Below are positions 27,685 through 38,337 of a stretch of DNA of 64,000 nt, in pieces. The notes below the pieces were generated by a model. That model saw only the letters and a program-made list of their open reading frames with translations. It had not been told where the DNA came from and ran no database searches. Position 1 is the stretch's first letter, and each line of letters begins with the position of its first letter. The DNA is from Ollibium composti (GTDB taxonomy: Bacteria > Pseudomonadota > Alphaproteobacteria > Rhizobiales > Rhizobiaceae): NCBI RefSeq assembly GCF_004801285.1, contig NZ_SSNY01000001.1:496001-560000 (forward strand), written 5' to 3'. The position numbers were made by a program, and so were the translations under genes.

Positions 27685-28866
27685 ATGTTGACGATCGGCA
27701 AGTCGGATGCAAGCGGGGAGGCGCCAAACGGCCGGCGGGCGCGCCTCGCCGTCGGCGAGGAGGGCGACGTGCTCGGCTGCGCGCTGGCCGGCACCTGGAC
27801 GACGCGTACAGTCGCCGATGTCGACGCCGATATGCGTGCGATCGAAAAGCGAAGCGGATTCAAGACGCTGGCGCTCGACCTTTCGGGCATAGAGAAGATC
27901 GACACGGCCGGCGCCTGGCTGATCGACCGGTTGAAGGAAGCCAACCGCAAGCGCGGTGTCGAGGTCCAGGTGCAGGGCCAGAGCAAGATCACGTCGATCC
28001 TGCTCGACGCCGTCGGCGAGGCGGCGCGGCGCAACGACGACACACCGCCGGAGCGGCCGCCCAACATCGTCATCCGCGCGCTGGAGGCGATCGGACGCCG
28101 CGTCTACGAGATGCGGGACGATTTCATCGCCGCCATGAACATCCTCGGCGCCACCATCCGGGGCGCGCAGATGAAGCTCGGCCGCGGCCACGCGGTCAAC
28201 CCGGCGGCGATCTTCAACCAGATCGACCGCATGGGCGTCGGCGCCATTCCCGTCGTCGTGCTGATGTCGGCCATCGTCGGCGCCATCGTCGCCCAGCAGG
28301 GCGCCTATCAGCTGCGCTACTTCGGCGCCGACATCTTCGTGGTCGACCTTGTCGGCGTGCTGGTCCTGCGCGAGCTCGGCGTGCTGATGACGGCCATCAT
28401 GATCGCCGGCCGCTCGGGCAGCGCGATCACCGCCGAGATCGGCTCGATGAAGATGCGCGAGGAGGTCGACGCGCTGAAGGTCATCGGCCTCAATCCGATC
28501 GGTGTGCTGGTGTTTCCACGGCTGGTGGCGCTGGTCATCGGCGTGCCGTGCCTGACGATCCTGGCCAATTTCGCGGCGCTGGGCGGCGGCATGATGGCGG
28601 CCTGGCTCTATTCCGACATTCCGCCGGCCGCCTTCATAGATCGGCTGCGCGCCGCCATCGACCTCAGCACCATCTTCGCGGGCCTCATAAAAGCGCCGTT
28701 CATGGCCATGATCATCGGGACGATCGCTTCGGTGGAGGGCATGAAGGTGGGAGGCAGCGCCGAATCGCTCGGCCAGCATGTGACCGCTTCGGTGGTGAAG
28801 TCGATCTTCATCGTCATCATCCTCGATGGCCTGTTCGCCATCTTCTACGCGGCCATCGAGTTCTGA
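27685..28866 (+). CDS. Mla-type ABC permease with N-terminal STAS domain
   Basis: A 393-residue inner-membrane permease of the MlaE family. Residues 1-120 form a STAS-like domain (SGIEKIDTAGAWLIDRLKEA), and the rest is the MlaE fold of five to six helices with the conserved segment around REELGVL-type RELGVLMTAIMIAGRSGSA and EIGSMKMREEVDALKV. In E. coli the STAS subunit is the separate protein MlaB; here it is fused. The system moves phospholipid between outer and inner membrane. It starts a four-gene operon; the ATPase gene begins one base after its stop. Confidence 0.9.
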   Translation: MLTIGKSDASGEAPNGRRARLAVGEEGDVLGCALAGTWTTRTVADVDADMRAIEKRSGFKTLALDLSGIEKIDTAGAWLIDRLKEANRKRGVEVQVQGQSKITSILLDAVGEAARRNDDTPPERPPNIVIRALEAIGRRVYEMRDDFIAAMNILGATIRGAQMKLGRGHAVNPAAIFNQIDRMGVGAIPVVVLMSAIVGAIVAQQGAYQLRYFGADIFVVDLVGVLVLRELGVLMTAIMIAGRSGSAITAEIGSMKMREEVDALKVIGLNPIGVLVFPRLVALVIGVPCLTILANFAALGGGMMAAWLYSDIPPAAFIDRLRAAIDLSTIFAGLIKAPFMAMIIGTIASVEGMKVGGSAESLGQHVTASVVKSIFIVIILDGLFAIFYAAIEF

Positions 28867-28867
28867 C

Positions 28868-29680
28868 ATGGCCATTGCAGAAGAAAAGGCTGGCCTGAAC
28901 GGCGCCGAGGGCGACGGGATCGTCATCTCGGCACGCGACATCACCGTCGCCTTCGGTGACAAGGTCATCCTCGACAAGCTGTCGCTCGATATCCACCGTG
29001 GCGAGATCCTCGGCTTCGTCGGCGCCTCGGGCGCCGGCAAGTCGGTGCTCCTGCGCACCATTCTCGGCCTCAACAAGAAGCAGGCCGGCACGATCGAGCT
29101 GTTCGGCGTCGACGTCGACAAGGCAAGCGATGTCGAGCGGCTGCGCATCGATATGAGGATGGGCGTGCTGTTCCAGCACGGCGCGCTGTTTTCCGCGCTG
29201 ACGGTGCTGGAGAACGTGCAGGTGCCGATGCGCGAATATCTCGACCTGCCGAAGGCGCTGATGGACGAACTGGCGCTGCTCAAGATCGAACTGGTCGGCC
29301 TGCCGCCGGACGCGGCGCGGAAATTCCCGTCCGAGCTTTCCGGCGGCATGGTCAAGCGCGCGGCGCTGGCCCGCGCGCTGGCGCTCGACCCAGACGTCGT
29401 CTTCCTCGACGAGCCGACCTCCGGCCTCGACCCGATCGGCGCTTCCGAGTTCGACGAACTCGTCGTCAAGCTGCGCGACACGATGGACCTCACCGTCTAC
29501 ATGGTCACGCACGACCTCGATTCGCTGTTCACCGCCTGCGACCGCGTGGCGGTGCTCGGCAACAAGAAAATCCTGATCGAAGGCACGATCGAGGACATGC
29601 TGAAAAGCGAGGAGCCATGGGTGAAGTCGTATTTCCGCGGAAAACGGGCGCGGCAGCTTGATCTTGCGGCGCGGGCATAG
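28868..29680 (+). CDS. Mla-type ABC transporter ATPase
   Basis: A 270-residue ATPase of the MlaF family. Walker A is GASGAGKSVLL near residue 55, the signature LSGGMVKRAALARAL, and Walker B VVFLDEPTSGLD followed by the conserved H in MVTHDLDSLF. The MlaF-typical sequence LFQHGALFSALTVLENV is present. It powers lipid movement with the STAS-permease encoded one base upstream. The MCE gene follows after 13 bp, so the genes are translationally linked. Confidence 0.92.
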   Translation: MAIAEEKAGLNGAEGDGIVISARDITVAFGDKVILDKLSLDIHRGEILGFVGASGAGKSVLLRTILGLNKKQAGTIELFGVDVDKASDVERLRIDMRMGVLFQHGALFSALTVLENVQVPMREYLDLPKALMDELALLKIELVGLPPDAARKFPSELSGGMVKRAALARALALDPDVVFLDEPTSGLDPIGASEFDELVVKLRDTMDLTVYMVTHDLDSLFTACDRVAVLGNKKILIEGTIEDMLKSEEPWVKSYFRGKRARQLDLAARA

Positions 29681-29693
29681 AAGCTAGGGCGCG

Positions 29694-31067
29694 ATGGAAA
29701 CCAGGGCCAACTACGTCATCGTCGGTATCTTCACGCTGGTCGCGATCCTGGCGGCGTTTGGCTTCGTCTACTGGACGGCGGCGATCGGCGACAAGGGCGA
29801 GACGGTGCTTTTGCGCGTGCGCATACCGGGGTCCGCCTCCGGCCTCGGTCGCGGCAGCTTCGTCATGTTCAACGGCGTCAAGGTGGGCGACGTGCGCCGC
29901 GTCTACATCGACGTCAGCAACCCGACAGTCGCCATCGCCGATACCGAGGTCGACCGGATGACGCCGATCACCAAGTCGACGCAGGCCGATATCGGGCTGG
30001 CGGGGCTGACCGGGCAGGCCAATATCGAACTGAAGGGCGCCGATCCCAAGGAGCCCAAGCTCCTCGACGAGGCCGAAGAGGAAGGCAAGGTGGCCGAGAT
30101 CGTCGCCAATCCTTCCGCCGTCACCAATCTCCTGCAGACGGCGCAGGACATCTTCACGCGCGCCGACAAGGTGATCTCGGAACTTGAGGGCTTTGCGACC
30201 GACGTGCGTGGCCCGCTGACCCAGACCGTGCAGAACGCGCAGAAATTCTCCGACGCGCTGGCGCGCAATTCCGACGGCGTCGACAAGTTCCTCGCCAGCG
30301 TCTCCTCGCTCTCCGAAACGCTGCAAGGGGTTTCGGGCAAGCTCGACGGCACGCTGTCGGCGGCGCAGGACCTCTTGACCGCCGTGGACCGCGACAAGGT
30401 CAAGGAGATCGTCGCCAACATCGACGGCACGACGAAGAACCTGAAGGCGACCAGCGACCGCTTCGACGCTGTGCTCGGCAAGGTCGATACCGCCGTCGGC
30501 TCGATCAACGCTTTCGCCCAGAAGACGCAAGGCACGCTGGCCAAGGTGGACGGCGTGCTGGACAGCATCGACCCGAACGACGTGAAACAGGCGCTGGCCA
30601 ACATCAACAAGGCCAGCGACAATGCCAACCAGGCGGCCGCCGACATCGCCGAGGTCACGCATAAATTCGCCAACCGCGCCGACGATATCGACCAGACGAT
30701 CAGCGATGCCAAGCAGCTTGCCGAACGCCTCAACAACGCCTCCGTGCGGGTCGACGGCATCCTCGTCAAGGTGGACAACCTGCTGGGCTCGGGCGAGGCC
30801 AACGGGGTTATGGCCGATGCGCGCGAGACGCTGAAATCCTTCAAGCAGGTGGCCGATACGCTGAACGCGCGTCTCGGTACCATCACCGACAACCTGGCGC
30901 GCTTCTCGGGCGAGGGCCTGCGCAACGTCAACGCGCTGGTGCAGGACAGCCGCCGTTCGATCAACCGCATCGAGCAGGCGGTGACGGACTTGCAACGCAA
31001 CCCGCAGCGCATCCTTTCGGGTGGCGACGGCGAGGTGCGCCAGTACGACGGCAGGGCGCGGCGTTGA
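29694..31067 (+). CDS. MCE-domain (MlaD-like) lipid transport protein
   Basis: A 457-residue periplasm-facing protein anchored by one N-terminal helix (about 6-28, ANYVIVGIFTLVAILAAFGF). One MCE domain covers about 38-118 (RIPGSASGLGRGSFVMFNGV). The remaining 330 residues are predicted helical, with repeated hydrophobic heptads and many Asn/Asp/Lys, much longer than E. coli MlaD (183 residues). MCE proteins form hexameric rings with a lipid tunnel, and the long helical tail may extend it across the periplasm as in PqiB or Mce tubes (inference). It lies between the ATPase and a lipoprotein gene. Confidence 0.9.
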   Translation: METRANYVIVGIFTLVAILAAFGFVYWTAAIGDKGETVLLRVRIPGSASGLGRGSFVMFNGVKVGDVRRVYIDVSNPTVAIADTEVDRMTPITKSTQADIGLAGLTGQANIELKGADPKEPKLLDEAEEEGKVAEIVANPSAVTNLLQTAQDIFTRADKVISELEGFATDVRGPLTQTVQNAQKFSDALARNSDGVDKFLASVSSLSETLQGVSGKLDGTLSAAQDLLTAVDRDKVKEIVANIDGTTKNLKATSDRFDAVLGKVDTAVGSINAFAQKTQGTLAKVDGVLDSIDPNDVKQALANINKASDNANQAAADIAEVTHKFANRADDIDQTISDAKQLAERLNNASVRVDGILVKVDNLLGSGEANGVMADARETLKSFKQVADTLNARLGTITDNLARFSGEGLRNVNALVQDSRRSINRIEQAVTDLQRNPQRILSGGDGEVRQYDGRARR

Positions 31068-31821: not shown

Positions 31822-34800
31822 CTACCGCAACCGGCCGCCGGCATGCGCCAGCATGGTATAGACCTTGCCCGTATCAGAGGTGAGATAGGTCTGCGTCATC
31901 ATGTTGTCGCGGTCGTTGCGCGAGACGTCCTTCAACAGCTTCTCGAAGTCATCGCAGTACCGGTCGACGGCGGCACGGAATTCCGGCTCGCTCTGGTACT
32001 TGCGGCGAATCTCGTCGAACGTCTGCTGGCCCTTCAGCGTGTAGAGCCGGCGGGTGAAGACGTCGCGCTCACCCTTGCGGTAACGGTTCCACAGCTCGAT
32101 CGAGGCTTCATGGTCGATGGCGCGGGCGATGTCGACCGACAGCGAGTTCAGCGATTCGACCACATGCAGCGGCGAACGCTGGGCGGGAGCCGGACGCGGC
32201 GCTTCGGTGCGCGGCGTCGCCGCCGGCCTTGCGGCATCGTCCTGCGAGGCGCCGGCGAGCAGGTCCTGCACCCAGCCGCCCTGCTGCGGACGCGCCGTCT
32301 CGCGCTGCCGCTCGAGTTCGAGCGTACCGCGCATGCCGTCGCCGGCAGGCGCCTGCGGAGCCGGGCGCGCCGGCTGGGCGGACGGGGCCGCCGGTCGGCG
32401 CTGCTGTTCGGCGGCGCCGCGCAACGTCTGCGGGGCGGGGCGCTGGCCGCGCGGCGGCGAGACGTCGACGCTGCGGCCCGACTTGGCGACGATCTCCGAC
32501 AGTTCCTTCAAGGCGTTGATCTGCTCGGAAACGGCGCGGCGGATGGCCGTGGTGGATTCCTTGGCCTCTTCCGGCATCTCGATGACGCCCTTGCGCAGTT
32601 CGGCGCGGGTGAGATCGAGCTCGCTCTTGATGGACTTGGCGGTGTGGCGCATCTCCTCGGTGGCGCTGGCGAAGCGCTGCGTCGCGGACTCGATCGCCTC
32701 GCCGATGGCGGTGCGGATCTTGTCGGCGGACTCCAGCGTCTTGCCTTCGGCGTTTTCCAGCGTCTTGCCGACGAGGCCCTCGAAGGAGCGCATGACCTTT
32801 TCCAGGTCCTCCGACTTCTTGACCAGGCCGACGGCGAGGTCTTCCAGCGAGGACTGCCGCTCCAGCGTGTGCTCCAGATTGCTCTGGGCGGAGGAGAGCA
32901 GGTCGGAGGCGCTGGCCAGAAGCCGGCTGTGCTCGTCGAAGCGGGTGGCGATGGAGGCCACCTCGCGCAAGGTCGCAGACGACAGTTCGGTCAGCCTGGT
33001 CGTGTTGGAATCGACCAGACGCGCCGAGCTGGCGAACGTCTGCGCGGCCTTTTCGGTGGTCGCCGCGAAGCTCTGCGTCGAGCCGGTAAGCTGCGATTCG
33101 ACCTGGCCGAGATTGGTGGCGGCTTTCTCGATCAGCGCGCCCAGCTGGCTGGACGAGGCCGTCATGCGCCCGATCAGGTCGGTCACGTTGTCGGCCAGTG
33201 TCGAGCGCGCGCCGTCGACCGCCGAGAGCGTCTCGGCGGTGCGGGACGCGATGGCGTCGACCAGCGCCGCATTCTCGCGGCGCAGCTTCTCGGTCGCCTG
33301 TTCGGTCGCTTCCTCCATGGAGCGCTGCAGCTCGGAGCCGCCCGCCGCGAAGCGCTCGACCAGCGGCCGCGCCGTCTCGTCCAGGATCTTGGAGAGTTCG
33401 GCCGAACGCGAGGCCAGCATGGAATTCAGCTCGCGCGTGTTGGCACCGATGGTCTTTGCCGCGTCGTTGGTGCTCTGGCCGATATGCTGGCCGACCGCGG
33501 TGAAGGTTTCGGCGATCACGTTGGCGCGCGACACGAGCTGGCCTTCGGCCTCGGCGATCTGCTCGCCGAGCTTCTGGCCCATGGTCTCGGCCGAGCGGGC
33601 CAGCCGGCTCTCGGCATTGGAGACATGCTCCTCGACGCGGGCGGCCGTCGTCTCGGCGCTCGCGGCCAGCCGCTCGTCGGCACCGGTGAGCGCCTGCTCG
33701 ATGTCGCGGGCATGGCCGGCGAGCTGAGCGCCGGTCTGGCGCACATGCTCGGCGACGCGCTGCTCCGTCTCGGAGAAGGCGCCGACGATATGGTCGGCCT
33801 GCCGGCCGATGGTGGACGCCGTCTCGGCGATGCGCGAGGCGAGCCTGCCGTCGGCGTCGTCGAACACCTGGCCGATCTCGGCGACGCGCGCCGAAAGCGC
33901 CTGCGAGCCCTCGGCGATACGCTGTGACAGCTGCTCGTCGGCGCCGTCGAAGATGCGGCCGAGATCGGTCGCACGCGAGGCCAGCGCCTCGGCCGATTCG
34001 CCGATACGCCGGGCGAGCTTCTGGTCGGCGTCCTCGAAGTTGCGCAGGATGTCGCCGGCGCGGGCGGCCAGCGACTGCGCCGTCTCGACGGCACGCGCCA
34101 CCAGCCTCTGGTCGGCGCTGTCGAAGGTGGCGGCGATCGCCTCGGCCCGGGCGGCGAGTTCCGCCGCCGTTTCCTCGTTGCGGGCGATGAGCGCGCTCGA
34201 CGTGTCCTGCGCGCGCGCCGCCATGCGGCCGTCCGCCTCTTCGAAGGCGCGGGCGATGTCCTCGGCACGGGCGAGCAGCGCGGCCGAGGTCTGCTCGGCG
34301 CGTTCGGCTATCTTGCGGTCGGCATCGCTGAAGGCGATCCCTGCCTGCTCGTGCAGGGCGCTGGTCACTTCCATGACCTTTTCGCGCAGCGCACCCGCGA
34401 CGAACACCGCACTCTGCTCCAGCACGCCGCGGATGTTGTCCACGCCGGACGACAGCGCCCGCTGCATGGTGCCGGCGCGTTCCTCGATGATGCCGGTCTG
34501 GCGGTTGAAGGCGTCCTCCATCTTCTCGATGTCGGCGCCGATGGCATCGGAGATGCGGGCGCTGCGCGCCGCGATCTGGTCGATGTGGCCGGTGACGGCG
34601 CGGTCGATGTCGCCGCGCACCTCGGCAAGCTTGCCGAGGTCTTCGTCGAGCGCCCGAGTCAGGATATCACGGCCTTCGGCGATCTTGCCGACATGGCCGG
34701 CGATGATGTCGTCGATGCCGCCGCGGCTTTCCGCGATCTTGGCAAGGTCGGCCTCAAGCGCGCGCTTGAGGATATCGCGGCCTTCGGCCAGCTTCTCGAC

Positions 34801-37800
34801 CTGGCCTGCAACCAGCCCGTCGATGCCGGCGCGGCTTTCGGCCAGCTTGGCGAGGTCTTCTTCAAGCGCGCGCTTGAGGACGTCGCGGCCTTCGGCGAGC
34901 TTCTCGACCTGGCCGGCGACCAGCCCGTCGATGCCGGCGCGGCTTTCAGCCAGCTTGGCGAGATCTTCTTCAAGCGCACGCTTGAGGACGTCGCGGCCTT
35001 CGGCCAGCTTCTCGACCTGACCGGCGACCAGTCCGTCGATGCTTGCACGGCTCTCCGCCAGCTTGGCAAGATCGTCTTCCAGTGCGCGGGACAGGGTGGA
35101 GCGATCGGCGGCAAGGCGGTCCTGGTGGCTGTTCACCAGTTCGTTGACGGCCCGCAGATCGTCTTCCAGGCTGCTGGCGAACCTGGCGCGACCGTCGACG
35201 AGCTTCTGTGCCTGCTCCTCCATGGCGCCGCCGATGGTGTGGAGATCGTTCTCCAGCGCGCGCCTGAGGATGTCGCGGCCTTCGGCGAGCTTCTCGACCT
35301 GACCGGCGACCAGCCCGTCGATGCTCGAACGGCTCTCCGCCAGCTTGGCGAGGTCGTCTTCCATGGCCTTCGACAGCGCCGCGCGCCCGACGGTCAGCCT
35401 GTCCATATGCTCCTGCACGAGGCCGTCGACGTTCTTGAAGTCGGCTTCGAGCGCCTGCGAGAGGGTGGCGCGTTCGGCCGCGATGCGTGCCTTGTGTTCT
35501 TCGGCGCTGCGGTTGAGGGCGCCGAGGTCGTCTTCGAGCACCTTGGAGAACTGCGCGCGGTCCTCGACGAGCTTCTGCGACTGTTCGCCGATGACGCCAC
35601 GGATAGTGTTGAGATCGGAGTCCAGCGCGCGCTTGAGGATGTCGCGGCCCTCGGCCAGCTTCTCGACCTGGCCGGCGACCAGCCCATCGATGCTGGAGCG
35701 GCTTTCCGCCAGCTTGGCGAGGTCGGATTCCAGCGTCTGCGACAGGGCGGCGCGCTCGGCGGCGAGCCGTTCCATGTGGCCGTGGACGATTTCGTTGACC
35801 TTCTGGAGATCGCTTTCCAGCACCTGGGCGAACTGAGAGCGATCCTCGGAGAGTTTTTGCGACTGCTCGCCGATGACGCCGCGGATCGTGTTGAGATCGG
35901 ATTCCATGGCGCGCTTGAGGATGTCGCGGCCCTCGGCCAGCTTCTCGACCTGACCGGCGACCAGCCCGTCGATGCTGGAGCGGCTTTCCGCCAGCTTGGC
36001 GAGGTCGGATTCCAGCGTCTGCGACAGCAACGAGCGTTCCTGCGCCAGCTTGTCGGAATGGTCGGCGACCAGCGTCCTGATGTTGGAGAGGTCGTTTTCA
36101 AGCGACCGGCCCAGTTCGCCACGGTCTTCGGCCAGCTTGACGGAATGGCTTTCCATCAGGCTCTTCAGCCTCTCTGCGTCGGCTTCGAGCGCCCTGGCCA
36201 GCACAGCGCGGCCTTCGGCGATCTTCTCGACCTGACCGGCGACGAGGCTGTCGATGCCGGCGCGGCTTTCCGCCAGCTTGGCGAGGTCGGCTTCCATGGC
36301 GCGCGACAGGATGTTGCGGCCCTCGGCCAGCTTTCCGACATGCCCGGCGACCATTTCATCAATGATCGTACGCGCTTGCGTCAGTTTGTCAGCGTCCTGG
36401 TTCAAGGCAACGGAAAGCCTGCCGCGACCTTCTTCGAGGCGCTCCAGATGGCTGCCCAGCGAGGCGTCCATGGCGGCGCGCGCTTCGTTGACCTTGCGCA
36501 GGTCTTCTTCCAGCGCGCGGGCGATCAGGTTGCGGCCCTCGGCGAGCTTCTGCACCTGCGCGGTGACGGTGGCGTCGATCTCGGCGCGGCCCTCGGCGAA
36601 CTTGCCGAGGTCGGCATGCATGGCGGCGGCCATGCGTTCGCTGCTTTCGGCGAGGTTGCGGCTGTGGTTCTCGACAGCTTCCTCGATGCCGGCGCGGGCC
36701 TCGGCAAGCCGCGCGATGTCGGCGTCGAAGGTGCGCGAGACGGTGTGGCGCGCGGCCTCCATGCGGCCGGCGAAGTCGCTGGCGCGCGCCTCCAGCATGG
36801 CGGAGGTGGAGTTGACGATATCGGCCATGTCGGCGCCGATGCGCGTCTTGCCGTCGTCGATCATGGCCGACAGGGTCTGCTGGCCGGTGGTGAAGGCGTT
36901 GTTGATCTCCTTCGCGCGCTCGACCAGCGTCTCGTTGATCTGGCGAGCACGGGCTTCCAGCGCCGCGTTGAGCTTCTGCGTGCCGGTGTCGAGCGCCTCG
37001 GCGCGGGTCTGGAACTCGCCGATCAGCGCCTGGCCGCGCTCGGCGAGCGTACGTTCGATGCCGTTCAGGCTGGCCTCGAACTCGGCGCTGAGGTTGCGGG
37101 CGGCGCCGCCGAGCAGCGAGACCATGCCGGAGGTGCGGTCGTCGAGCAGGTCGGTCAGCGAGCGCGTCAGGCCGTCGGTGGTGTCGGTCAGCTTGGCGAT
37201 GCGGGTGTCGAGCAGGGAGGCGAAGGCCTCGCCGGAGGTCGACAGGCGCTCGGTGATCGTGTCCAGCCGGGTCTCGACCGAATCGAAGATCGACATCGAG
37301 CTTTCGTTGATGCGGTCGATCAGCGTGTCGCCGGAATTGGTGATCGTCATCGACAGGTTGGTCGAGGCGCCCATGATGGATTCGCGGATGCGGTCGGAGG
37401 CGGCGCCGATCTCGTCGCGCAGCGTCTCGTGCGCGCCGGCGATGGAGGCACGCACGCGCTCGGCGTGGTTGACCACCGCCTCGCGCTCGCTGCCCAGCCC
37501 GTCGACCAGCTGGCGGATGCGGGCCTCGTTCTCAGAGTAGGAGCGCTCGATCTGGCTGACCTCGCTGTGGACGAGCGTTTCCAATTCGACGGCGCGCGCG
37601 AGCGTGCGCTCGATGCCTTCGCCCATGGCGGCCACCTCGCGGCGCACGGCCTGGCCGATCATCATGACGCGGTCCTGGGCGAGGTTCTCCGGCTCGGCGA
37701 GGCGGAAGGCCACCTCGGTCATCGACTGCGCGGCAAGCCGCATGTCCTGCGCGCGCCGCACCATGGCGGCGAAGGCCCAGAACAGCACCACCGGCACGAT

Positions 37801-38337
37801 TGCTGCGACGGCGACGCCGATCAGCTCGGGACGGGCGAGCAGCTGGTCGAGAGTGCGGATGTTCCAGATGGACGGGCCGAACAGCAAGTGGGCAAGCGCA
37901 GCCGCGCCCGCGATCCAGACCACGGAGATCAGCGCGACGATCCAGTAGATGGTGTTGGAGGCGCGGCGGTTGAGGCCATGCAGCAGGGATTTGTAGTCCT
38001 TCTGCCGATCGTCGTTGGCAGGCGCGAAGGCCGCTGTCGGCTGGCTGCCGTTGGAGCGCGGCTCGACGGGGCGCAGGTCCGCAGGCCTGGATTGGTTGGC
38101 GGCAGGCCGGGCAGGTTCGGCTTCGGTGGGAGCCGGCTTGGCGGCCGCGGGTTTTTCCGCGCGGCCGGCGCGCGCTAGCTCCTCGGCGGCCTGCGAAATC
38201 TGGGCTTCCAGGTCCTCCATCGATGCGGCGATGTCCAGATCGCCGCTGTCGGAAGCGAGATCGATGTCCAGCGCAGCCTCGAGTTCCTTGGCCACTTCGT
38301 TGTCGAGGGATTTTGTTGTCGTTGTTTTCTTCGCCAT
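31822..38337 (-). CDS. Growth pole ring protein GPR/RgsE, giant membrane-anchored coiled protein
   Basis: A 2171-residue protein. The N-terminal cytosolic part is acidic and then Pro/Ala-rich (1-120). Two membrane helices follow at about 130-153 and 172-192. The rest, over 1,900 residues, is almost wholly predicted amphipathic helix or coiled coil. It contains a 36-residue repeat family (about 590-1225) and a 29-residue family (about 1356-1589), then a Pro-rich linker near 1960-2050. A compact conserved C-terminus begins at about 2060 (HVVESLNSLSVDIARAIDHE). Size and layout match the GPR protein of Agrobacterium and RgsE of Sinorhizobium, which form a ring at the growing pole and are needed for unipolar growth. 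Older databases call such proteins 'kinesin-like', which is misleading: no motor ATPase motif is present. No catalytic motif is visible. It is divergent from the Hpt gene. Confidence 0.85.
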   Translation of the reverse strand: MAKKTTTTKSLDNEVAKELEAALDIDLASDSGDLDIAASMEDLEAQISQAAEELARAGRAEKPAAAKPAPTEAEPARPAANQSRPADLRPVEPRSNGSQPTAAFAPANDDRQKDYKSLLHGLNRRASNTIYWIVALISVVWIAGAAALAHLLFGPSIWNIRTLDQLLARPELIGVAVAAIVPVVLFWAFAAMVRRAQDMRLAAQSMTEVAFRLAEPENLAQDRVMMIGQAVRREVAAMGEGIERTLARAVELETLVHSEVSQIERSYSENEARIRQLVDGLGSEREAVVNHAERVRASIAGAHETLRDEIGAASDRIRESIMGASTNLSMTITNSGDTLIDRINESSMSIFDSVETRLDTITERLSTSGEAFASLLDTRIAKLTDTTDGLTRSLTDLLDDRTSGMVSLLGGAARNLSAEFEASLNGIERTLAERGQALIGEFQTRAEALDTGTQKLNAALEARARQINETLVERAKEINNAFTTGQQTLSAMIDDGKTRIGADMADIVNSTSAMLEARASDFAGRMEAARHTVSRTFDADIARLAEARAGIEEAVENHSRNLAESSERMAAAMHADLGKFAEGRAEIDATVTAQVQKLAEGRNLIARALEEDLRKVNEARAAMDASLGSHLERLEEGRGRLSVALNQDADKLTQARTIIDEMVAGHVGKLAEGRNILSRAMEADLAKLAESRAGIDSLVAGQVEKIAEGRAVLARALEADAERLKSLMESHSVKLAEDRGELGRSLENDLSNIRTLVADHSDKLAQERSLLSQTLESDLAKLAESRSSIDGLVAGQVEKLAEGRDILKRAMESDLNTIRGVIGEQSQKLSEDRSQFAQVLESDLQKVNEIVHGHMERLAAERAALSQTLESDLAKLAESRSSIDGLVAGQVEKLAEGRDILKRALDSDLNTIRGVIGEQSQKLVEDRAQFSKVLEDDLGALNRSAEEHKARIAAERATLSQALEADFKNVDGLVQEHMDRLTVGRAALSKAMEDDLAKLAESRSSIDGLVAGQVEKLAEGRDILRRALENDLHTIGGAMEEQAQKLVDGRARFASSLEDDLRAVNELVNSHQDRLAADRSTLSRALEDDLAKLAESRASIDGLVAGQVEKLAEGRDVLKRALEEDLAKLAESRAGIDGLVAGQVEKLAEGRDVLKRALEEDLAKLAESRAGIDGLVAGQVEKLAEGRDILKRALEADLAKIAESRGGIDDIIAGHVGKIAEGRDILTRALDEDLGKLAEVRGDIDRAVTGHIDQIAARSARISDAIGADIEKMEDAFNRQTGIIEERAGTMQRALSSGVDNIRGVLEQSAVFVAGALREKVMEVTSALHEQAGIAFSDADRKIAERAEQTSAALLARAEDIARAFEEADGRMAARAQDTSSALIARNEETAAELAARAEAIAATFDSADQRLVARAVETAQSLAARAGDILRNFEDADQKLARRIGESAEALASRATDLGRIFDGADEQLSQRIAEGSQALSARVAEIGQVFDDADGRLASRIAETASTIGRQADHIVGAFSETEQRVAEHVRQTGAQLAGHARDIEQALTGADERLAASAETTAARVEEHVSNAESRLARSAETMGQKLGEQIAEAEGQLVSRANVIAETFTAVGQHIGQSTNDAAKTIGANTRELNSMLASRSAELSKILDETARPLVERFAAGGSELQRSMEEATEQATEKLRRENAALVDAIASRTAETLSAVDGARSTLADNVTDLIGRMTASSSQLGALIEKAATNLGQVESQLTGSTQSFAATTEKAAQTFASSARLVDSNTTRLTELSSATLREVASIATRFDEHSRLLASASDLLSSAQSNLEHTLERQSSLEDLAVGLVKKSEDLEKVMRSFEGLVGKTLENAEGKTLESADKIRTAIGEAIESATQRFASATEEMRHTAKSIKSELDLTRAELRKGVIEMPEEAKESTTAIRRAVSEQINALKELSEIVAKSGRSVDVSPPRGQRPAPQTLRGAAEQQRRPAAPSAQPARPAPQAPAGDGMRGTLELERQRETARPQQGGWVQDLLAGASQDDAARPAATPRTEAPRPAPAQRSPLHVVESLNSLSVDIARAIDHEASIELWNRYRKGERDVFTRRLYTLKGQQTFDEIRRKYQSEPEFRAAVDRYCDDFEKLLKDVSRNDRDNMMTQTYLTSDTGKVYTMLAHAGGRLR
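33570..34270 (-). repeat. 29-residue repeats in GPR/RgsE
   Basis: About eight copies of a 29-codon (87-bp) unit, recognised by R-A-x-D-I-x-x-x-F-x-x-A-D-x-x-L followed by A-x-R-x-x-E-x-A. Conservation is at protein level; copies differ markedly in DNA. They cover residues 1356-1589. Confidence 0.8.
34763..35100 (-). repeat. 108-bp tandem repeats in GPR/RgsE (36-residue unit)
   Basis: Three near-identical 108-bp copies begin at 34763, 34871 and 34979 (plus-strand coordinates). Each encodes a unit containing LAKLAESRAGIDGLVAGQVE then KLAEGRD and LKRALE. More diverged copies continue to about 36600, making around nine to ten units in total. The very similar neighbours point to recent duplication or gene conversion. 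Confidence 0.85.

Follow-up and report, generated by a model that had tools for sequence, protein, structure and literature searches.

A giant membrane-anchored helix of GPR/RgsE type varies in length but keeps its helical phase, most likely as near-straight coiled-coil rods at the growth pole

Introduction

What does the very long, repeat-built helix of a GPR/RgsE protein do at a growing pole: does it bind lipid, measure a distance, or build a rod? In the rhizobia studied, the pole does not grow normally unless GPR/RgsE is present, and the experiments now being done on this protein are built on an apolipoprotein reading. Here we analysed a gene of this type (gpr below) in a window of 64,000 nucleotides from Ollibium composti (contig NZ_SSNY01000001.1, positions 496,001 to 560,000). 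In the open-licence literature searched, we found no earlier account of the grammar of 7 and 11 residues or of the phase-kept indels described below, no paper joining hendecads with Rhizobiales, and none joining coiled coils with apolipoproteins.

Results

Gene, parts of the protein and ortholog sample

The limits that an earlier sequence-only reading had given for the gene are correct, and the coding strand is the minus strand (Table 1). The open frame of 1275 residues lying antisense to gpr probably arises from the codon usage of the repeats.

Table 1. Parts of the gpr gene and protein, and neighbouring features, in coordinates of the window
Feature	Residues	Position	Strand	Basis or remark
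GPR/RgsE-type gene, 2171 aa		31822..38337	minus	one C-terminal-domain match in own genome
Two transmembrane stretches	within 125-200	37738..37965	minus	mean hydrophobicity 0.84
N stalk	231-540	36718..37647	minus	heptads (about 45 residues), then hendecads
Heptad lead of the N stalk	231-275	37513..37647	minus	about 45 residues, precedes the hendecads
First array, modules of 18 and 29	598-1236	34630..36546	minus	anchor spacings
Purest 36-residue stretch	1093-1240	34618..35061	minus	segment profiles, module reading
Non-repetitive junction between the arrays	1251-1350	34288..34587	minus	conservation, indel map, AF2
Second array, 29-residue units	1351-1600	33538..34287	minus	autocorrelation, composition
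C stalk	1601-1930	32548..33537	minus	spacing 3.61, indel map
Pro-rich linker	1931-2060	32158..32547	minus	many small indels between 1956 and 2051
Conserved C-terminal domain	2061-2171	31825..32157	minus	matched in 389/397 order genomes (own included)
Open frame of 1275 aa		34351..38178	plus	antisense to gpr
ABC-transporter ATPase and MlaD-domain protein (lipid transport type)		28826..31067	plus	convergent to gpr

The C-terminal 112 residues were matched in 99 of the 101 genomes drawn from the family and in 389 of the 397 drawn from the order; these draws overlap, and the source genome is counted in them. Two such matches were present in each of eight genomes, possibly reflecting a duplicated, split or contaminating gene. 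Among the best 80 of the matches listed, the nearest named relatives place the source genome close to Mesorhizobium. Five reduced genomes of 1.1-1.5 Mb still carry a copy, in frames of 1,345-1,980 residues, so the protein outlasts genome reduction.

The ortholog set consists of 200 distinct full-length proteins from the fetched loci, after removal of ten duplicates, of ten loci that gave no usable reading and of three frames with no upstream stop. One protein read in the wrong frame (L143) was excluded from the indel analysis onward. A protein of 1148 residues, apparently truncated and with no TM-like stretch, is in the indel pool, but size filters keep it outside the period and spacing counts. 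Two TM-like stretches lie within the first 400 residues of 194 of the 200 orthologs.

The first array is a mosaic of 18- and 29-residue modules

The repeats are real. In autocorrelation over residues 980-1330, the lag of 36 reached z=20.2 when compared with full shuffles and 9.7 when compared with shuffles preserving the polarity pattern; over residues 1330-1640, the corresponding values for the lag of 29 were 15.7 and 6.7. The 18-residue period, by comparison, is accounted for by the polarity pattern alone (class-shuffle z from -0.1 to 1.3 in the array segments). The sequence-only reading had proposed nine to ten 36-residue units for the middle of the protein, and this part of it must be corrected, as the first array is not made of pure 36-mers: they are ten pairs of 18, and nine interleaved 29-residue modules had been missed. 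Indeed, the anchor spacings over residues 598-1218 run 36, 18×4, 29, 29, 18, 18, 29, 29, 18, 18, 29, 29, 29, 18, 18, 29, 29, 18×8, that is, a mosaic in which 18-residue modules occur 20 times and 29-residue modules nine times, when the lone 36, in which the central anchor does not fit the search pattern, is taken as two 18s. An Arg stands in the middle of the hydrophobic face of the 18-mer; its constancy is partly by construction, as Arg belonged to the anchor pattern.

Larger units are also visible. Blocks of 94 residues (29+29+18+18) start at 706 and 800, with related copies later in the first array, and are 57% identical between 706 and 800, 55% between 800 and 894, and 31% between 706 and 894. 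The 36-mers at 1111 and 1147 are identical in protein and 94% identical in DNA, with 6 of 36 codons differing. The existence of a second, different 29-residue array in the later part was borne out (about 1327-1616); its 29-mers form another family than those of the first array. Two unrelated repeat families, as originally stated, are nevertheless rejected: the residues differ, but the units share a common grammar of 7 and 11. Outside the arrays, periods of 11 and 22 were found in residues 231-530 and weak periods of 25, 18, 11, 14 and 7 in residues 1640-1960.

The same anchor reading was applied to 15 named relatives, one of which was a dropped duplicate. Eleven, from the Mesorhizobium-Aminobacter-Pseudaminobacter-Aquamicrobium group, have only spacings of 18, 29 and their sums, and the 18/29 tiling was not seen in Nitratireductor, Aliihoeflea and Tianweitania.

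A heptad/hendecad grammar tuned near the untwisted helix

In length, the units add up from steps of 7 and 11 (18 = 7+11 and 29 = 7+11+11). Comparison across Rhizobiales, where units of 22, 29, 36, 40 and 44 occur, indicates that unit and length vary while phase is kept. In 6019 ortholog windows (L143 still counted) the commonest top lags were 22, 29, 11, 36, 44, 33, 25, 40 and 18, and 90% of the windows fell within a preset of 15 lags that excluded 44 and 55, with rare exceptions such as 48, 12 and 17. The top period beat the best of 20 shuffles in the middle region of all 197 orthologs.

Under a model of 3- and 4-residue steps in any order, the first array resolves for the most part into 34344 (18) and 34344344 (29), and a 3 hardly ever follows a 3 (0.005). 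The main core state of the model is 0.89 L/I/V/F/M. The second core-type state, at the start of the 3-residue steps, is non-hydrophobic and enriched in T, G and R, and the stripe therefore differs from a plain heptad core.

The idea that each unit makes whole helical turns and presents the same face is supported, and the phase is also kept in evolution, as the indels described below fit it. Array spacing is 3.60-3.63 residues per turn, close to an unsupercoiled helix. Along the protein we measured 3.46 in residues 231-275, 3.667 in 276-540, 3.59 in 541-705, 3.617 in 706-1092, 3.60 in 1093-1236, 3.65 in 1237-1330, 3.63 in 1347-1600 and 3.61 in 1601-1920. A hydrophobic stripe near 3.60-3.67 residues per turn thus spans hundreds of residues, as in the mixed heptad/hendecad class. 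Over the order, the N stalk averages 3.653, the middle 3.642 and the C stalk 3.606, the C stalk lying below the middle in 197 of 199 orthologs and the first 45 helix residues below the N stalk in 177 of 199. As described in the available text of PMC9858780, supercoil is the departure from the intrinsic helix and amounts to 0.12 for pentadecads (15/4), which implies an intrinsic helix of about 3.63 residues per turn. Since their spacings sit near this value, both arrays would be nearly untwisted, and slightly different from each other. The different curvature that had been proposed for them thus retains only this slight difference (about 3.61 versus 3.63), as both are near straight.

Indels keep phase and leave length free

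Does evolution respect this grammar? In 165 close pairs, the helical region yielded 184 different indel strings, 138 of them under 60 residues. All of these 138 array indels have lengths of the form 7a+11b, compared with 19 of 265 in the flanks; by chance, 29 of the 59 lengths from 1 to 59 fit, and lengths of 60 or more can always be so written and are therefore uninformative. At the strict setting, not one array indel of 1-6 residues was found in these pairs. When indels of 1-6 residues were simulated with 10% substitutions, all 60 were recovered at exact length at the middle gap setting. In sampled pairs, 126 of 126 indels fit under strict gap costs, and 138 of 140 and 141 of 154 under looser ones, where the extra misfits may be split long gaps. 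The strings should not be counted as separate events, and pairs that are related have history in common. At greater distance (14 pairs, 21 proteins), 22 of the 28 array indels under 60 residues fit, the commonest length being 22, and the six misfits come from four proteins.

A map against the 58 orthologs of at least 70% identity placed 203 array events, all starting at residues 720-1576. Of the 148 under 60 residues, 147 fit; the lone misfit, a 3 in a single protein, lies next to a 113, and together they make 116 = 4×29. Residues 154-719, 1235-1363, 1577-1955 and 2052-2171 are free of indels in this comparison, and the stalks are therein of fixed length. Counting the indels in bins along the protein gave the same picture. 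The junction is well conserved among near relatives, but not among far ones.

The 36-residue events have a median identity of 0.94 to the neighbouring stretch. Of the 19 eleven-residue events, on the other hand, the nine that lie in the first array show no more than 0.27 identity to the stretch beside them and so are not tandem copies; they can be read as exchanges of 18 for 29. Total length ranges from 1206 to 3016 residues in the 194 orthologs with two TM-like stretches (CV 0.167), and from 1899 to 2451 in 46 Mesorhizobium records. At least 14 changes of period class are needed on a tree of 161 proteins, for which the last 330 residues were used.

How much of the apolipoprotein match is polarity?

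The whole protein scores 91.9 bits with PF01442, against a cut-off of 90. Each of five segments falls below it: 42.3 bits for residues 231-540, 26.5 for 541-1092, 36.7 for 1346-1600 and 40.9 for 1601-1930, with no match even at E 10 for residues 1093-1240, the purest 36-mers. Permutation of the N stalk within polarity classes gave 45.3, 40.9 and 52.2 bits against the native 42.3, and that of the C stalk 25.6, 27.7 and 26.2 against 40.9, while one full shuffle of each stalk gave no PF01442 match. The N-stalk match therefore carries no more than the polarity pattern, and the C stalk keeps further signal. With ApoLp-III (PF07464), the N stalk scores 39.3 bits (cut-off 36.3) and three class permutations 18.9-21.1, although the whole-protein scan gives only 19.9 bits. 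The N stalk thus has some residue-specific likeness to ApoLp-III that periodicity alone does not explain. A Pfam cut-off pass is weak evidence here, because the unrelated families TBCA_PH (42.3 versus 27.8) and PSMbeta (29.3 versus 25) also pass it in the arrays.

Apolipoproteins are marked by 22-mers punctuated by Pro. These were not found in the gpr protein, which has no Pro and no Trp in residues 231-1600, and two Pro in residues 1601-1930. Net charge is negative in every segment. On the D scale for lipid-binding helices, with its marks at 1.34 and 0.68, none of the 18-residue windows exceeds the upper mark and 2-13% exceed the lower one. Much of the apolipoprotein match originates in polarity, and apolipoprotein homology of the arrays was rejected on segment scores and permutations. 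The suggestion that the arrays make apolipoprotein-like membrane contact thus found no support. Some likeness to lipid families is seen in the stalks, which may contact lipid.

Predicted structure

In the AF2 monomer model, residues 1093-1600 form three long helices (1094-1308, 1316-1456 and 1466-1599; mean pLDDT 72.1, pTM 0.23), and not unrelated folds. Its breaks at 1309-1315 and 1457-1465 are uncertain, with pLDDT near or under 50. The first break falls in the junction, which may be a hinge. A search of PDB sequences at E 0.001 returned a single match, a designed single-chain antiparallel coiled coil (E 4.4e-7), and Foldseek returned none for the array model. The C-terminal domain was poorly modelled (pLDDT 53.6; best Foldseek match E 1.5), and the NCBIfam scan gave no family for the protein. 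A single stable alpha-helix is unlikely given about one third charged residues and the strong hydrophobic stripe.

Discussion

We consider it most likely, with a probability of roughly 0.6, that the gpr protein is a membrane-anchored giant helix forming near-straight, phase-locked coiled-coil rods at the growth pole. A helix of about 1,700 residues would carry one hydrophobic stripe of mixed heptads and hendecads, for the most part tuned near the untwisted helix. At least two such chains would pack alongside one another with their registers matched, giving long coiled-coil rods that are almost straight and are suspended from the inner membrane at the inner face of the growing pole. These rods would work much as Scy of Streptomyces does, and the conserved C-terminal domain, on its flexible linker, would hold partners. 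The gain and loss of middle units would vary rod length almost only in phase-keeping steps. The repeat grammar, the phase-keeping indels, the fixed-length stalks and the polarity behind much of the apolipoprotein match are shown by the analysis; the coiled-coil state, the parallel register, the rods and the holding of partners are inferred.

Several findings count against the rods. The designed antiparallel match in the PDB leaves antiparallel packing possible, the second core state is non-hydrophobic and the face of the 18-mer holds an Arg, unit-sized indels are partly expected from recombination between DNA repeats, and 6 of the 28 array indels under 60 residues misfit in the far set. The uncertain breaks in the AF2 monomer model and the N-stalk score above the ApoLp-III cut-off weigh on the same side. 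Furthermore, with a rise of 0.15 nm per residue, 1,700 residues extend to 255 nm. The available text of PMC8262873 puts the extended helix at 600 nm, and reports foci of 50 nm, which against an extended helix of 255 nm also count against an extended rod.

The published deletions can be set beside these rods. In the available text of PMC8262873, a 20-residue deletion in domain A-IV-4 interfered most severely with the wild type, beyond removal of the whole 263-residue domain, and partly complemented on its own; its authors mention functional homomultimers and non-functional mixed ones. As a post-hoc fit, at 3.63 residues per turn a loss of 20 residues takes away 5.5 turns and shifts the phase by roughly half a turn, which in a mixed coiled coil would cause a clash downstream. 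In the abstract, however, the deleted regions are of 21 residues (5.8 turns), another 20-residue deletion interfered too but complemented well, and phase gives no clean classing of the published deletions of 263 and 346 residues.

Could the helix instead fold back, hinged at the junction, so that in a single chain the two arrays, or the stalks, form an antiparallel bundle with each other? The AF2 breaks, one of them inside the indel-free junction, the designed single-chain coiled coil as sole PDB match and the small size of the published foci (PMC8262873) point this way. But the breaks are of low confidence and indels hit either array, so that paired arms would often be unequal, and we regard this arrangement as unlikely. 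An apolipoprotein-like belt, as published for the Agrobacterium protein, whose amphipathic helices would bind or sort membrane lipid, seems to us improbable. It agrees with the whole-protein PF01442 score, with the drop of the N-stalk ApoLp-III and C-stalk PF01442 scores on class permutation, and with the disturbed growth reported in the available text of PMC8262873 for deletions of A-IV-like regions. It is opposed by the N-stalk PF01442 match, which class permutation does not lower, the lack of any match in residues 1093-1240, the equally passing unrelated families, and an acidic helix devoid of Pro and Trp in residues 231-1600 and of windows above the upper D mark.

That the repeats and unit-sized indels arise from recombination between DNA repeats alone, with phase unselected, is distinctly improbable. 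Such recombination must supply many of the indel events, as the near-identity of 36-residue events to their neighbours and of two 36-mers in DNA suggests. It does not predict the absence of small out-of-phase indels at the strict setting, when the aligner recovers simulated ones, nor the nine first-array 11-residue events that do not copy their neighbours, the stalks free of indels, or at least 14 changes of period class while the spacing held near 3.64. A molecular ruler, in which protein length would set a fixed distance at the pole, had been proposed by the sequence-only reading and is hardly credible now: the stalks are constant in length among the 58 near orthologs, but total length varies widely even within Mesorhizobium, whereas the coiled coils of the synaptonemal complex are depleted of indels and conserved in length (PMC8598163, available text).

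If the phase-locked rod is correct, deletions need to be designed by helical phase, the loss of 20 residues interfering more than that of a 263-residue domain becomes explicable, and species with different numbers of units provide rods of graded length that can be compared with ring size and pole shape. A broader proposal, which we hold only tentatively, is that the polar growth of Rhizobiales depends on a giant coiled coil, near-straight and phase-locked, that has been mistaken for an apolipoprotein. Evolution would freely add and remove its helical units but bar almost any step that turns the stripe, so that register between neighbouring chains, and not length or lipid binding, is selected, and Scy would have arrived at this untwisted design independently. 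If true, untwisted hendecad rods would be a general solution for a growth-pole scaffold.

Comparison with known systems

The closest known systems are GPR (Atu1348, A. tumefaciens) and RgsE (SMc00190, S. meliloti). With these, as published descriptions give them, the gpr protein shares a size near 2,100 residues, a helix of about 1,700 residues, two TM stretches at the N terminus and the Rhizobiales distribution. Those accounts describe apolipoprotein domains and short coiled coils, whereas here we find the grammar of 7 and 11 and phase-preserving indels. The word repeat does not occur in the main text of PMC8262873 as available, and PMC7327166 calls the protein repeat-containing.

Scy and FilP of Streptomyces are likewise coiled-coil proteins of polar growth, as the gpr protein would be. 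In Scy a short canonical coiled coil leads into a long one that is non-canonical, with 14 turns to every 51 residues, or 3.643 per turn (PMC3718342 and PMC9858780, available text), and the heptad lead of the gpr protein resembles its short canonical lead. The gpr protein differs in its units (18, 29, 36 and 22 against 51), in its membrane anchor and in phylum. The 51-residue repeat is not a unit in it, a single one of 197 orthologs had 51 as its top period, and the DivIVA family had no match in its Pfam scan at E 0.001. The likeness to Scy would thus be one of design, not of family membership. With apolipoproteins A1/A4/E (PF01442) it shares the amphipathic periodicity of 11 and 22 residues and a score just over the cut-off; unlike them, it has no Pro in residues 231-1600, a narrow hydrophobic face and an acidic character. 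The coiled coils of the synaptonemal complex offer a last parallel, as there too selection acts on indels over sequence (PMC8598163, in the text available). That complex keeps its length, whereas the gpr protein keeps its phase while its length varies.
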